Origin: Synechococcus sp. RS9909
GTDB taxonomy: Bacteria > Cyanobacteriota > Cyanobacteriia > PCC-6307 > Cyanobiaceae
Length of the DNA stretch: 64,000 nt
Reading direction: 5' to 3'
Assembly (NCBI RefSeq): GCF_014279595.1
Contig: NZ_CP047943.1
Location: forward strand, 992,001-1,056,000
Made by a program: the position numbers and the translations under genes. This document shows, in pieces, positions 56,217 to 64,000 of the stretch; within the stretch, counting starts at the first letter, position 1; each line of letters begins with the position of its first letter. The notes under the pieces were generated by a model. The model searched no databases. It saw only the letters and a list, made by a program, of their open reading frames with translations, and had not been told where the DNA came from.

Positions 56217-56288
56217 GGGTCGCTAGCTCAGCGGTAGAGCACTCGGCTTTTAACCGATTGGTCCTGAGTTCGAATCTCAGGCGACCCA
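56217..56288 (+). tRNA. tRNA-Lys (anticodon UUU)
   Basis: The gene has a 7-bp acceptor stem (GGGTCGC/GCGACCC), a D-arm with GCTC/GAGC and the AGCGGTA loop, the anticodon loop CTTTTAA carrying TTT, and a T-arm CTGAG/CTCAG around TTCGAAT. The CCA end is not encoded. One base pair at the outer end of the anticodon stem looks mismatched. It borders the accessory region on its right, as tRNA genes used as integration sites often do. Confidence 0.95.
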
Positions 56289-58465: not shown

Positions 58466-59317
58466 TCAGAGCACCAGGTTCATGGGTTGCACCACAACCG
58501 GCAAGCACGACAAAGAACGATTAGACCCCTCGGCCTGCAACTTGAGGATGTCCAATAAGTTGACTTGACTTTCCAAAAGGCAAGCATGCCCGCTTTGGGG
58601 AAGTACAAAGGTTCTTGCCCCAGGAAGATAACGCGTCAATCGAGACGCTTCGCTCCTTGAAGGGAGAAGACGATCCGCACCAGATACCATGATCAACGTT
58701 GATTGGTGTGCACGATCAACTGCAAAGTCATCGACATCAAACTGCTTCAACAATGACAGCCTCCAGGCGGCAGTCTCAGGACCGACAGATTGCATGGCGG
58801 ACAACAATCGTCGCTTCATGGACTTGCGAACCCGATGGGATGCAATCAAAAGATCGCAGAGGCCAAGTGTTGAAAGATTATAAAGCGGAACTGGCAACAA
58901 TTTTGTTATTGCACTACAAGGATGAATCCAAAGCTGATTCCGTGCAGATGAAGCGGGATTCACCAAGATCAGTTGATCACACAAATCTGGGAATCGAAAA
59001 ATCAAACTCAGAGCAAGACAACCTCCAAATGACTCGCCACAAATGATGGTCATCTGGCCAGGGTTTCGATCCTGTTCCATCTTGATCAGAGTGGCCGTTC
59101 GTTCTGTTAGTTCACCCCATCCTGAGCGATCGCTTGGAGACATGGAGAGACATCGGACATTAAAATTCTGATCCAGTCCGTCACGTTGTGCCTGCAGAGA
59201 AAGGCCTGTGCCATCCATGCCCGGCAAGAAAACAAACAATGGCCGAGGTGATGTCACCTGCGTCAAAGCAATCAGCCGCAAAGAATCATACGGGTTAGCC
59301 ATTAGCGAAAGGCTCAA
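58466..59317 (-). CDS. Alpha/beta hydrolase, esterase/lipase of the phytyl ester synthase-like group
   Basis: The 283-aa protein has LFVFLPGMDGTGLSLQAQ (oxyanion region), the nucleophile elbow IICGESFGGCLALSLI (catalytic Ser in GESFG), NPASSARNQLW, a late acidic residue (MVSGADRLLPS), and the catalytic His in LPQSGHACLL. This order, with PGMDG and GESFGG, resembles the hydrolase half of plant phytyl ester synthases and cyanobacterial relatives. Start is ATG 59317 (or 59302). It overlaps the acyltransferase gene by 4 bases, so the two are coupled. Confidence 0.8.
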   Translation of the reverse strand: MSLSLMANPYDSLRLIALTQVTSPRPLFVFLPGMDGTGLSLQAQRDGLDQNFNVRCLSMSPSDRSGWGELTERTATLIKMEQDRNPGQMTIICGESFGGCLALSLIFRFPDLCDQLILVNPASSARNQLWIHPCSAITKLLPVPLYNLSTLGLCDLLIASHRVRKSMKRRLLSAMQSVGPETAAWRLSLLKQFDVDDFAVDRAHQSTLIMVSGADRLLPSRSEASRLTRYLPGARTFVLPQSGHACLLESQVNLLDILKLQAEGSNRSLSCLPVVVQPMNLVL

Positions 59318-60033
59318 CAGTAATCATGAGATAAAAAATCAGCAATCTGATTCTGACAATTTTCGGTGATCTCCCTCACGACAGCAGCGCTATTGCGTCC
59401 TCTATACTGAGATCTCAACCCCTTGTCAATCAACAGAGGTTTGCCAATGGCAATGTCGACATGACGATAAATAACCGCTGAATGCCAGCCCTCATTTTGA
59501 AATAGAACTTCTGAAGGATCGAAATAGCGAAACCATTGTAACGGTGCAAGTCGCCCCAGTTTTTCATCCCTTGAGGCAATGGCAACTGGAAGAACCGCCA
59601 GGTCGTCAACGGGAGCCTTGAGAGCGAGGTGTGCAAAGCCTCTGTGAAATGGGCTCAGATGATGCGATGGCTTGACATTCACCATCGGAGCAGCGCCTTC
59701 TGGGAACACACCGACCAACTGATTGGATTGCAAAATATTTATTGACTGACGGAAAAATGATGCCTGGCATTGACGTCCTGACTCAAGCGGAAACGCTCCC
59801 ATCAACATGGTGGCTTGATGCAGAACTGGCACTTGGCTCATGTAATAGTGGCAAGCAAATCTCACAGGACGGCCGATTGCACACATTAACAAGGGCGCAT
59901 CGAACAGGCTGCGATGATTGCTGACAACCAAGAGACGATTATCGGGAATACGGTCAAGGTGGTGATAGGACGTCGATATACCAGCGACGCCAAGCAAACT
60001 TTGTGAAATTCTTAGAGGAATACTAGGTCGCAT
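59314..60033 (-). CDS. PlsC-type lysophospholipid acyltransferase family protein
   Basis: The 239-aa protein shows the LPLAT acyltransferase motifs: block I VVSNHRSLFDAPLLM (catalytic His-x4-Asp), a middle FPLESGRQ, and block III GVFPEGAAPMVN. It lacks multiple membrane spans. With its partner hydrolase it could transfer acyl groups onto an alcohol such as a polyketide, prenyl alcohol or glycerolipid; the acceptor is unknown. It is followed, with a 4-base overlap, by the hydrolase gene. The base composition is lower in GC than the core genome. Confidence 0.82.
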   Translation of the reverse strand: MRPSIPLRISQSLLGVAGISTSYHHLDRIPDNRLLVVSNHRSLFDAPLLMCAIGRPVRFACHYYMSQVPVLHQATMLMGAFPLESGRQCQASFFRQSINILQSNQLVGVFPEGAAPMVNVKPSHHLSPFHRGFAHLALKAPVDDLAVLPVAIASRDEKLGRLAPLQWFRYFDPSEVLFQNEGWHSAVIYRHVDIAIGKPLLIDKGLRSQYRGRNSAAVVREITENCQNQIADFLSHDYC

Positions 60034-60518: not shown

Positions 60519-61655
60519 TCAAGTAGCGCAGCGCTGCTCCAATGGTTGCGTTGTTTCATCGCGCCCGGCAGTGAGATGGAACAGAGCAACTTCAGCGCAG
60601 AGACCTGGACCGAAAGCCAACGCCAGACAGGGGCCAGGACTGGAGGATTGGCGCAGGCGCTCGAGAATGAACAGGATCGTGGCGCTCGACATGTTGCCGT
60701 GGTCATGCAGCACAGCTTGGGAACAATCAAGCTGATAAGGCTTCAGTCCCAACGCTTCGCCACAGGCCGACAGTATGCGAGGCCCACCGGGGTGCATGGC
60801 CCAGCTCGTGATCGAGGCGGGATCGAGGCCCCATGGGCTCAACCAATCATTCAGCCAGGGACGTAGGACATTGGCCACGGTTTGCGGAACCCGTGGCGAC
60901 AGGCCCATGGAGAAACCATGATCCGCGATCTGCCAATGCATCAGATCTGCGGATCCGGGAATCACGGTGGACCCGCTGGCCTCGAGACGCAGAGCGGCAT
61001 TGCAACCAGGTGGTTGAACAGATGCCACCACGGCGGCAGCCCCGTCGGCGAACAGGGCATTGGCCACCACTTGCTCCCTATCAGCACCGTATTGGAGATG
61101 AAGGCTGCAGAGTTCCACGCAACACAGCAACACCACGGCAGAGGCATCTGATTCCGCAAAGGCGCGGGCGACGCGCAGTCCATTGAGAGCTCCATGGCAG
61201 CCCATGAAACCAACATGAGTGCGCTGGACATCAGGCATCAGTCCCAGCTCTGCGATCAAAGCCAGGTCAACGCCGGGAGCGTCAAAGCCAGTGCAGCAGA
61301 CCGTCACCAGATGGGTGATGGCTGAACCCGGAAGACCGGAGTCGGCAAGGGCAGCTCGCGAGGCCTTCAGGGCCAAAGCTGCGGCATGGTCACGAAAGGC
61401 CCGCATGCGCTCAGCAGTGGAAGGGCTTTCGGTCCCATAGAAGGGCACTCGGTCAAGAAATGAGGTTTCTCCCTGATCCTCAGAGATCAGGACACTGCCG
61501 CGGCTGCGCACACCACTGCGCTGGTGGATGCGTTGCAAGAGCGCCGATGGCGGACCCGCCGCTTCGCTGACGTGCTCCGACAGAACGATCGCCTCGTCAA
61601 GACTGACGCGGCCGGGTGGAACAGCCGTGCCCATGCCATGCAGCGTCAGAGACAT
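60519..61655 (-). CDS. Type III polyketide synthase (chalcone synthase superfamily)
   Basis: The 378-aa protein has the whole thiolase-fold catalytic triad of type III polyketide synthases. The Cys is in GFMGCHGALNGL (Cys153), the His in WAMHPGGPRIL (His288), and the Asn in HDHGNMSSATILF (Asn321). Such enzymes extend acyl-CoA starters with malonyl-CoA. The start at MSLTLHGMGTAVPPGR is typical. Its 5' end overlaps the 3' end of the oxidoreductase gene by 10 bases. In bacteria with the same three-gene cassette the product is usually a long-chain resorcinol or pyrone that is then methylated and oxidised. Its own product is unknown. Confidence 0.93.
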   Translation of the reverse strand: MSLTLHGMGTAVPPGRVSLDEAIVLSEHVSEAAGPPSALLQRIHQRSGVRSRGSVLISEDQGETSFLDRVPFYGTESPSTAERMRAFRDHAAALALKASRAALADSGLPGSAITHLVTVCCTGFDAPGVDLALIAELGLMPDVQRTHVGFMGCHGALNGLRVARAFAESDASAVVLLCCVELCSLHLQYGADREQVVANALFADGAAAVVASVQPPGCNAALRLEASGSTVIPGSADLMHWQIADHGFSMGLSPRVPQTVANVLRPWLNDWLSPWGLDPASITSWAMHPGGPRILSACGEALGLKPYQLDCSQAVLHDHGNMSSATILFILERLRQSSSPGPCLALAFGPGLCAEVALFHLTAGRDETTQPLEQRCAT

Positions 61656-62794
61656 GGGATCACCTCGACGGGCAACTGCACCTGATTCAGCCTGGCGACG
61701 ATCCGCTCAGGCAACGCGGGCCATCGCCTGCAGAGACCGAACAGCCCCGCTGTGAGCATCGGACGACGCAGCACAGACGCGAGGGAGCGACAAACCCGCT
61801 GGCGGCGCAGAACCAATCCCTCGAGGTTTCGGTGCCAGCGTTGTTCGAGATCGAGCGACCAGTGGGCCTGGCCCTCGAGCACGAAGGGGGCGGCAGCAGC
61901 TCCGGCTGTGAGCGCCCATGCCATTCCCTCCCCGGTGAAGGGCTCGACATAACCGGCAGCATCGCCGATCAGTAAACAACGGGAGGTCGCAAGCGCGGGT
62001 GGCCGGCGTGTCAGCGCAGGGGTGAGCTGCCAGCGGGATCCGATCAGATCTGTCGGTAGCTCAAATCCAGCTGATTGGATCAAGGATCCGGCGGCGGCGG
62101 CTGCCCCGCCGTGGAGGCGGAGAAACGAGCGATCGAAAGCAGCCGCGAGGTTCAGAGCGCCATCCTCACGCCGAACAAGACCCACATATCCACCCGCACC
62201 CACCGCCATGTGAATCACGTTTTCGGCATAAGCCTTCGCCCGCTCGGTAAGGACACAGCCAGCGCCAATCCGCGATGCACCGGTGTTGGTGTCCCGGCGA
62301 TGGTCGGGGATGCAGTGATTCACCAGACCCGCGGCCACCAGAACCACCCTGGCTTGCACCACCTCTGACGCTCCACCGGGGATGGACAGGAGCCGGACGG
62401 AGCGTGCGCTGGGTCCCGCCTCCTCCAGAAGAGCACGCGTTTGAAAGCGAACCGTCGCACCGGCCTGTGAGGCGGCCTCCATCAGAGCCTGATCGAAACG
62501 CTCACGGGAGAGAACCCAGCCTCCGGGTAGAGACAGAAGCGCGGACTGACCCTTGAGGCCGATGTGCAGTCGCTCCAACGGAACGGCACCAGCCCGTTGC
62601 ATCAGATCACCTTGATCGACAGCATCCAGAACCGCCTGAGCCTGGGCGTTGAAACAACAGCCACACACCTTCCAACGCGGAAAGGCACGCTGCTCCACCA
62701 CAAGAACGCGCAATCCCCTTCGAGCGCAGTCGAGAGCGGCCAACCCACCGGCAACGCCAGCACCGATCACCACCACATCCCAGATCGTCGCCAT
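61646..62794 (-). CDS. FAD-dependent oxidoreductase, geranylgeranyl reductase-like
   Basis: The 382-aa protein has the FAD-binding start VVVIGAGVAGGLAALDCARRGLRVLVVE, the ribityl/phosphate segment CLLIGDAAGYVEPFTGEGMAWAL, and a middle part like the geranylgeranyl reductase/monooxygenase family. Between the methyltransferase and polyketide synthase genes it is likely a hydroxylase or dehydrogenase that oxidises the polyketide ring, as the flavoenzyme of the Streptomyces srs phenolic-lipid pathway does. Its ATG shares a base with the methyltransferase stop (TGATG). Confidence 0.88.
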   Translation of the reverse strand: MATIWDVVVIGAGVAGGLAALDCARRGLRVLVVEQRAFPRWKVCGCCFNAQAQAVLDAVDQGDLMQRAGAVPLERLHIGLKGQSALLSLPGGWVLSRERFDQALMEAASQAGATVRFQTRALLEEAGPSARSVRLLSIPGGASEVVQARVVLVAAGLVNHCIPDHRRDTNTGASRIGAGCVLTERAKAYAENVIHMAVGAGGYVGLVRREDGALNLAAAFDRSFLRLHGGAAAAAGSLIQSAGFELPTDLIGSRWQLTPALTRRPPALATSRCLLIGDAAGYVEPFTGEGMAWALTAGAAAAPFVLEGQAHWSLDLEQRWHRNLEGLVLRRQRVCRSLASVLRRPMLTAGLFGLCRRWPALPERIVARLNQVQLPVEVIPCL

Positions 62795-63528
62795 CAGGAG
62801 AACGGAGACCAGATCAAGCGCTGCCGCTCTGGCCAGAACGGCACAAGTTCAGCTGTTGTGAGGCCCGCTTCTGCCGCCAGACGTCGCAGCTCTGCTGGCG
62901 TGAAAGCGGCCCGAACGGAAAGAGGGCCATCGGTGTGCACCACCCAGGATCGACTCAGTAGACGCGTTCCGCACCAGGCGAGCCCATAACCCAGTCTGCT
63001 GCGAATCAGATCATCCACTACCACAAGTCGCCGCGCCCTGGCCGCCATCACCCGCAACAGCGTCACCACATCAGCGTCGTCGAGATGGTGGGCAAACAAA
63101 GTGCAGAACACCACATCAACGCGCTCTGGTCCTGGATCCTCGAGTGCATCGGCAACAAAGAACTCAACCGCTGATCCCCTCCGGAGAGCGTTACTGCGCG
63201 CGATGCGGATCGCCTCTGGATTCAGGTCGCAGGCACGGATCGAGAGCTGCAAACCTCTCCGACGGGCCATCCAATCCAGGTCGATGGCCGTATCACCACC
63301 ACCACACGCCAGCTCCAGAACACTGAGTGGTGCCTGTGTCTCGCTTGAAGGCAGGCTGAGAAGCGCTGAGAACACGCCAGTAGAACTGCGGCTGAGCGCA
63401 TTGATCAGCCGCAGTCCCTGAAGTGCGCGATGGTGCTCAGCTGGATCCAAACCCGGCTGATCCATCACCTCAGGCTGCCGGTCGCGTCGCATCAAGGCCC
63501 GGCCCCAGCTCATTTCAGCCCCAGGCAT
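62794..63528 (-). CDS. Class I SAM-dependent methyltransferase of the type III PKS cassette
   Basis: From ATG 63528 the protein is 244 aa (63513 and 63492 are other in-frame ATGs; the frame is open to 63621). It opens with RRDRQPEVMDQPGLDPAEHHRALQGLRLIN, a phrase I associate with methyltransferases encoded next to polyketide synthases. It then carries the SAM motif VLELACGGGDTAIDLDWMA and the acidic CDLNPE. It probably methylates a phenolic oxygen or ring carbon of the product made by the downstream genes. It is the first gene of the cassette. Confidence 0.87.
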   Translation of the reverse strand: MPGAEMSWGRALMRRDRQPEVMDQPGLDPAEHHRALQGLRLINALSRSSTGVFSALLSLPSSETQAPLSVLELACGGGDTAIDLDWMARRRGLQLSIRACDLNPEAIRIARSNALRRGSAVEFFVADALEDPGPERVDVVFCTLFAHHLDDADVVTLLRVMAARARRLVVVDDLIRSRLGYGLAWCGTRLLSRSWVVHTDGPLSVRAAFTPAELRRLAAEAGLTTAELVPFWPERQRLIWSPFS

Positions 63529-63712
63529 TGCTTCTAAGCTAACCCCGCCGACCTGACTTGACCTTGGCAAGGCGGGAACCAGCGGACGGAAGAACTCGAG
63601 ACCGCCTGCGGCGCAACGCATAACAAATGCAGCATCGACGCCGTGGCAAAAACGCCCAAAAAGGCCAGAGCAAGAAATAAAGTGTTACAGTCCAGTTCGT
63701 TGGAGTCTTCAT
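63529..63712. promoter_or_regulatory. Divergent promoter region between the PKS cassette and ocp
   Basis: This 184-base interval separates the minus-strand methyltransferase start from the plus-strand ocp start and must hold both promoters. A GGAG at 63702-63705 sits 7 bases before the ocp ATG. I could not confirm specific -35/-10 boxes. A 135-aa minus-strand frame across it (63539-63946) is antisense to ocp and rejected. Confidence 0.6.
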
Positions 63713-64000
63713 ATGTTCACGATCGAGAAAGCTCGGCAAATTTTTCCTGAGACGAGAACGGCTGATGCGGTTCCCGCTATCACAGCCCGTTACAAGCTCC
63801 TCAGCGCAGAAGATCAACTCGCTCTCATCTGGTTTGCCTATCTGGAAATGGGCCGAACCATCACGGTGGCAGCACCTGGAGCCGCACGGATGGCCCTGGC
63901 AAAACCAACCCTCGACGAAATCGAGGCGATGACTTTTGACGAGCAAACAAAAGTGATGTGTGATCTTGCCTCCAAGATCAACAGCCCGATTTCAAAGCGG
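63713..64000 (+). CDS. ocp: Orange carotenoid protein, N-terminal domain (partial, runs off the window)
   Basis: The 96 visible codons from ATG 63713 match the N-terminal helical domain of the orange carotenoid protein: MFTIEKARQIFPETR, then SAEDQLALIWFAYLEMGRTI, AAPGAARMALAKPTL, and MCDLASKINSP. OCP binds a ketocarotenoid and, once activated by strong blue-green light, quenches energy in phycobilisomes. Only this part is visible, so it could also be a stand-alone N-terminal homologue (HCP). The start MFTIEKAR corresponds to the normal OCP N terminus. An adjacent frp or carotenoid ketolase gene cannot be seen. Confidence 0.9.
   Translation, partial: MFTIEKARQIFPETRTADAVPAITARYKLLSAEDQLALIWFAYLEMGRTITVAAPGAARMALAKPTLDEIEAMTFDEQTKVMCDLASKINSPISKR

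Follow-up and report, generated by a model that had tools for sequence, protein, structure and literature searches.

A hidABC-type operon beside ocp in Synechococcus sp. RS9909 very probably specifies a hierridin-like phenolic lipid

The window analysed here is a stretch of 64,000 nucleotides of Synechococcus sp. RS9909 (NZ_CP047943.1, positions 992,001 to 1,056,000), near the end of which three minus-strand genes encode an S-adenosylmethionine (SAM)-dependent methyltransferase, a flavin adenine dinucleotide (FAD)-dependent oxidoreductase and a type III polyketide synthase (PKS). Judged from its genes, the operon is of the hidABC type and very probably makes a hierridin-like, O-methylated long-chain phenolic lipid. 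This kind of pathway is already known and the strain is a further member; the assignment is based on gene content, gene order, an intact active site and phylogenetic placement, and the chemistry would be that proposed for its relatives. The three overlapping open reading frames (ORFs) were confirmed as intact and are transcribed in the order hidA (62794..63513; an in-frame ATG at 63528 is also possible), hidB (61646..62794, 382 amino acids) and hidC (60519..61655, 378 amino acids), with overlaps of 1 base between hidA and hidB and 10 bases between hidB and hidC. The window contains what defines a hidABC cluster, that is, methyltransferase, FAD oxidoreductase and type III PKS genes on one strand in this order. 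An earlier sequence-only reading had described a three-gene operon of these classes, divergent from ocp, and the intact ORFs and the agreeing Pfam and NCBIfam classes bear this out.

HidC, a predicted alkylresorcinol synthase, matches both parts of the chalcone/stilbene synthase family (Pfam PF00195, Chal_sti_synt_N, 5.5e-28; PF02797, Chal_sti_synt_C, 9.1e-24), and one gene in the window genome exceeds the cut-off of the Pfam C-terminal family. The catalytic triad Cys153, His288 and Asn321, which the sequence-only reading had pointed out, is intact and invariant in all 106 aligned HidC rows (80 from the cyanobacterial part of the tree described below and 26 others); a Cys-His-Asn triad in a protein of this family is the mark of a type III PKS. 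M250 occupies the gatekeeper position equivalent to Phe265 of chalcone synthase (CHS), where Met was found in 80/80 rows of the cyanobacterial part; this equivalence is based on an alignment to a plant-type PDB enzyme and on the CHS sequence. A Met at this position has been reported for the HidC clade (3.2222) in a passage of PMC8086630, and M250 fits membership of HidC without being a proof of it.

HidB is a predicted aromatic hydroxylase. It matches FAD-binding families in Pfam and contains the motifs GAGVAG and GDAAG. The likeness to geranylgeranyl reductases noted earlier is present as a resemblance to the NCBIfam superfamily of that name, but it is under the cut-off (114 vs 158.8 bits), as is the match to the QhpG family. 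HidA is above the cut-off of NCBIfam PRK06202 (291 vs 243 bits) and matches Pfam Methyltransf_25, which agrees with the methyltransferase class given in the sequence-only reading, whereas the gene end given there, 63528, probably needs revision. All relatives compared share the ATG at 63513 (8/8, against 2/8 for that at 63528), and with translation beginning there the PRK06202 alignment starts at residue 1, so that the start of hidA is most likely at 63513 rather than at 63528.

Relatives of the PKS were detected at E<=0.001 in 112 of 300 sampled genomes of the family, 10 of these with weak matches only, and in 20 of the 31 genomes of the genus, the window genome counted. A search for the three genes elsewhere, as proposed in the sequence-only reading, was made in 100 related loci (the best 80 of 326 and 20 further genome stretches). 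Ninety loci carry all three genes, in 90/90 cases on one strand and in the order A > B > C, and in the remaining 10, some of which are at contig ends, at least one hid gene was not found. Greedy gene calls, which are unreliable in GC-rich loci, were used as a map only. WH 7803 carries the operon (L032). In the HidC tree of 109 rows, the window's protein pairs with that of genome G064 (82% identity; Shimodaira–Hasegawa-like approximate likelihood ratio test, SH-aLRT, 93), and the two join the WH7803-type marine Synechococcus in a 7-row clade (SH-aLRT 99) nested in an 80-row cyanobacterial part (SH-aLRT 85). Adjoining it are 25 rows from Planctomycetota, Hydrogenedentota, Acidobacteriota, Gemmatimonadota and one other bacterium (SH-aLRT 82), and a planctomycete-labelled row, L094, falls outside both parts. 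Non-cyanobacterial relatives are 47-54% identical to the window's HidC, except one partial match at 61%. The tree omits L087 and L105, the extracts of which were too short, identical copies and the characterised HidC of Cyanobium sp. LEGE 06113, and its cyanobacterial rows include L063, from a bin titled Bifidobacterium breve that is probably misbinned. In this tree the window PKS falls among the marine Synechococcus relatives of HidC. Roughly 1 kb downstream of hidC, WH7803-type loci carry a cytochrome P450 gene, and in G082 one adjoins hidA (L032 9876-11288, L113, L114, L115, L137 3813-5144); no P450 was found in the window genome at E<=1e-10.

Costa 2019 is reportedly the source for the tie between hidABC and hierridin in Cyanobium sp. 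LEGE 06113. Passages of two further papers link hidABC of this strain to hierridins B and C, which are O-methylated alkylresorcinol lipids (PMC8086630, PMC10896814); according to the first, HidA is the methyltransferase, HidB the oxidoreductase and HidC the type III PKS, hidA > hidB > hidC is the commoner of two arrangements, 47 hierridin-like clusters were surveyed in cyanobacteria, particularly Prochlorococcus and Synechococcus, and hierridin C is chlorinated by a mechanism that was not established (PMC8086630). The opinion of the sequence-only reading that no product had been described for a picocyanobacterial cassette is wrong. On the model of these relatives, HidC would join a long-chain fatty acyl thioester and three malonyl units (from malonyl-CoA), with ring closure through a C2-C7 aldol condensation yielding a 5-alkylresorcinol; the FAD enzyme HidB would then act as a ring hydroxylase and HidA as an O-methyltransferase of phenolic hydroxyls, resulting in a hierridin-like alkyl-methoxyphenol or hydroquinone lipid. 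For RS9909 itself, the product, its chain length and its pattern of methylation are inferred by analogy.

Several observations weigh against this assignment. The Met gatekeeper is not exclusive, as it also occurs in 26/26 non-cyanobacterial rows and in two of three divergent picocyanobacterial PKSs, those of L135 and L142. In the alignment to the best PDB match, PKS18, the tunnel residues Ser143, Asn208 and Ala209 (among those listed in a passage of PMC6274091) are replaced in HidC. The best NCBIfam match of the PKS is DpgA with 154.3 bits, far under the equivalog cut-off of 425 bits, and HidC was rejected as a DpgA (3,5-dihydroxyphenylacetyl-CoA synthase) on this score. The HidC tree was made by a quick method with no bootstrap and contains long-branched outgroup rows. 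Finally, the methyltransferase of the same operon type in Gimesia maris probably methylates carbon, as a passage of PMC10896814 states, and because of this counterpart the position and number of methylations by HidA are not to be assumed.

The divergent neighbour, which begins at 63713 and occupies 63713..64000 of the window on the plus strand (Carot_N), is a full ocp encoding 323 amino acids with Carot_N and NTF2 domains (L111 9714-10685). It is followed on the same strand, beyond the window, by a crtW-like gene (NCBIfam CrtW 209.5 bits, under the 350 cut-off) and frp (Pfam FRP 4.3e-28). Passages of two papers describe ocp, crtW and frp as a three-gene operon of marine Synechococcus (PMC7393227) and tie the ocp operon to cold-water populations (PMC10119275). 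hidABC stands head to head with ocp-crtW-frp, the start codons of hidA and ocp being 200 bp apart, and from this arrangement the sequence-only reading had derived a possible link of its phenolic or quinone lipid to photoprotection through a shared promoter region. A phenolic or quinol lipid is likely, but the shared promoter was rejected as a conserved feature, since G181, whose OCP is closest to that of the window strain (97% identity), retains ocp and 128 bp of its upstream DNA without hid, and the search for a PKS in this genome gave no match. Homology between the window and G181 (blastn) starts at 63585, which puts its edge 128 bp ahead of the ocp start codon and 72 bp upstream of the likely first codon of hidA, and the alignment runs for 2.2 kb with 87% identity over the whole length; the ocp upstream region (63585..63712, plus strand) is kept in G181 and the hidA upstream DNA (63514..63584, minus strand) is absent from it. 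On the other flank, homology stops at 59940 inside an acyltransferase gene. The space between these flanks is occupied by hid in the window and by approximately 7 kb in G181 containing cNMP-binding, GATase, cytochrome b561, EamA and MauE families, among others. Because G181 carries other genes between the same flanks, hid is, by this sequence comparison, in a variable slot beside ocp. The kinship of G181 and the window genome is based on the OCP identity, the matching DNA at this locus and their common genus label, and the two genomes form a natural with/without pair at one ocp locus.

The 63514..63584 segment weakly resembles the hidA upstreams of WH7803-type loci and may contain putative start signals of hidA's own; a consensus promoter scan between hidA and ocp detected no promoter-like site. 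A AGTGTTAC-GT-C stretch at 63681-63692, which ends 21 bp and begins 32 bp ahead of ocp, is shared by 4/4 ocp upstreams compared and is perhaps part of a putative ocp promoter. In all 12 other sampled genomes of the genus having both genes, PKS and ocp are at least 40 kb apart or on separate contigs, and among the sampled genus genomes hid adjoins ocp in the window genome only. Their adjacency is most likely a peculiarity of this lineage in a region that varies, and gives no evidence of shared function.

Downstream of hidC, at 58466-60033, lies a low-G+C pair of acyltransferase and alpha/beta hydrolase genes, and such a pair also adjoins hidC in G108 (L087). Acyltransferase relatives were detected in 47/300 genomes at E<=1e-10, of which 28 are strong (E<=1e-70); strong relatives lie within 10 kb of hidC in 2 of these 28 (the window genome and G108), and the pair was rejected as additional hid genes. 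A foreign origin of hid was rejected on composition, its G+C content (62.6%) being inside the 3-kb range of the window (mean 65.1, standard deviation 3.9); the low G+C (42-49%) belongs to the flanking acyltransferase, hydrolase and ocp-crtW-frp genes, not to hid. A tRNA-Lys gene is located at 56217-56288; some 1.4 kb further on comes the DoxX gene, at which the DNA of lower G+C sets in.

The sequence-only reading had also suggested looking for ocp near the cassette in other genomes. None of the 12 other genus genomes showed this, but PKS and ocp are within 10 kb in 16 of the 89 genomes with both, representing 6 of 16 genera and five distinct arrangements: that of the window, g31 with g35 (where hid lies upstream of ocp in the same orientation, the two taken as one), g45, g48 and g47. 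Uniform placement predicts 0.11 such arrangements (P 1.5e-7, or 5e-6 leaving the window out). Two of the five (g45 and g48) involve divergent PKSs (43% and 35% identity), one of which is next to a second, divergent OCP. These counts favour the explanation that the hierridin-type quinol lipid is photoprotective or antioxidant and that the operon lies close to ocp owing to co-regulation or co-selection. Against it, the excess is not significant compared with accessory-gene controls (Fisher p 0.16-0.26), which were found near ocp in 0/8 genera for the acyltransferase, the window arrangement excluded, and in at least 2 genera of an estimated 20 or so for the P450. Moreover, the genes between PKS and ocp vary by lineage (epimerase and PCC domain in L042, DNA ligase and MscS in L140, a symporter in L144), and the two genes are far apart in the rest of the genus, as described above. 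The 10 kb limit was picked after viewing the data, the grouping into five arrangements is our own and the control numbers were entered by hand; squalene-hopene cyclase, present in 2/300 genomes, was unusable as a control. On balance, a photoprotective role behind the closeness is rather unlikely. The broader idea, that type III PKS lipid operons repeatedly settle by ocp in picocyanobacteria and that their quinol lipids aid OCP in photoprotection or in cold or oxidative stress, appears quite improbable; it is a hypothesis, not a finding, and a weak functional argument, although one that can be tested cheaply on larger genome sets. A literature search for a link between hierridin or alkylresorcinol and OCP found none in the passages covered; among the papers listed, those with all the terms are a synthetic biology review and PMC13388484, the available passages of which concern other microbes. 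Two of the loci have further peculiarities: in G048 (L135 9485-14880) the second, divergent OCP (61%) is succeeded in the same orientation by genes for a divergent type III PKS (41-43%) and for a HidB-like flavoenzyme, and in G081 (L136 8371-14451) a very divergent PKS (32-35%), which has Cys instead of Met as its gatekeeper, faces ocp at a distance of 4 kb.

As to the product, HidC could form alkylpyrones, like PKS18 and ArsC, instead of resorcinols. Its top PDB sequence match is indeed the alkylpyrone synthase PKS18 (1ted, E 1.1e-45), with plant-type enzymes close behind, and the acyl-tunnel residue Cys205 of PKS18 (the tunnel is described in a passage of PMC6274091) is kept as C183; a passage of PMC8086630 also holds that pyrone formation by cyanobacterial enzymes should stay possible. 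The constant methyltransferase and FAD enzyme partners in hid order argue against alkylpyrones, as do the planctomycete PKSs, several of them from same-order operons, that yield pentadecyl- and heptadecylresorcinols in Corynebacterium glutamicum (passages of PMC10896814), and we consider this alternative very unlikely beside a resorcinol-derived, hierridin-like lipid.

The HidB part of the pathway was approached by an AlphaFold model (mean predicted local distance difference test score, pLDDT, 91.3). The top Foldseek match is the flavoprotein/dehydrogenase 3nix (structural Z 36.4), the top rows include the halogenases PltA, FasV (8zop), ChlB4, Mpy16, Bmp2 and RadH (Z 35-37), and behind these come the geranylgeranyl reductase-like 3oz2 (Z 34.1) and aromatic monooxygenases (Z 33-34). 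The modelled fold is thus near flavin enzymes acting on aromatic rings and fits ring oxidation, and taken alone it leaves hydroxylation and halogenation unseparated. Halogenases need a catalytic Lys besides the FAD-site motifs. In spite of the halogenases among the top structural rows, halogenation instead of hydroxylation of the ring by HidB is most improbable, as 3nix leads the matches, 3oz2 and the monooxygenases are near, and K42 (in the FPR-K-CG stretch) is the only invariant Lys across 50 HidB rows (49 of 81 located HidB proteins and the window's own).

Among known systems, PKS18 of Mycobacterium tuberculosis shares the triad and Cys205 with HidC and is its best sequence match of solved structure, but it is an alkylpyrone synthase and, to our knowledge, does not lie in such an operon. 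The srsABC genes of Streptomyces griseus, to which the sequence-only reading had compared the cassette, offer a fair functional analogy, a methyltransferase and a flavin enzyme having roles there too. They are likened here by description: the type III PKS SrsA is involved and alkylresorcinols are oxidised to alkylquinones (passages of PMC10896814). The Planctomycetota operon (Gimesia maris, Rhodopirellula baltica) has the same gene order, and a passage of that paper puts its protein identity to the cyanobacterial counterparts at 48-55%, but its PKS rows lie outside the 80-row cyanobacterial part and the G. maris enzyme is probably a C-methyltransferase. With hidABC of LEGE 06113 the likeness extends to the three genes, their order, their strand and the Met gatekeeper reported for HidC (passages of PMC8086630 and PMC10896814), the difference being that the operon of the window strain is back to back with ocp. 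The window thus adds one more marine Synechococcus, related to WH 7803, that is expected to make hierridin-type lipids.

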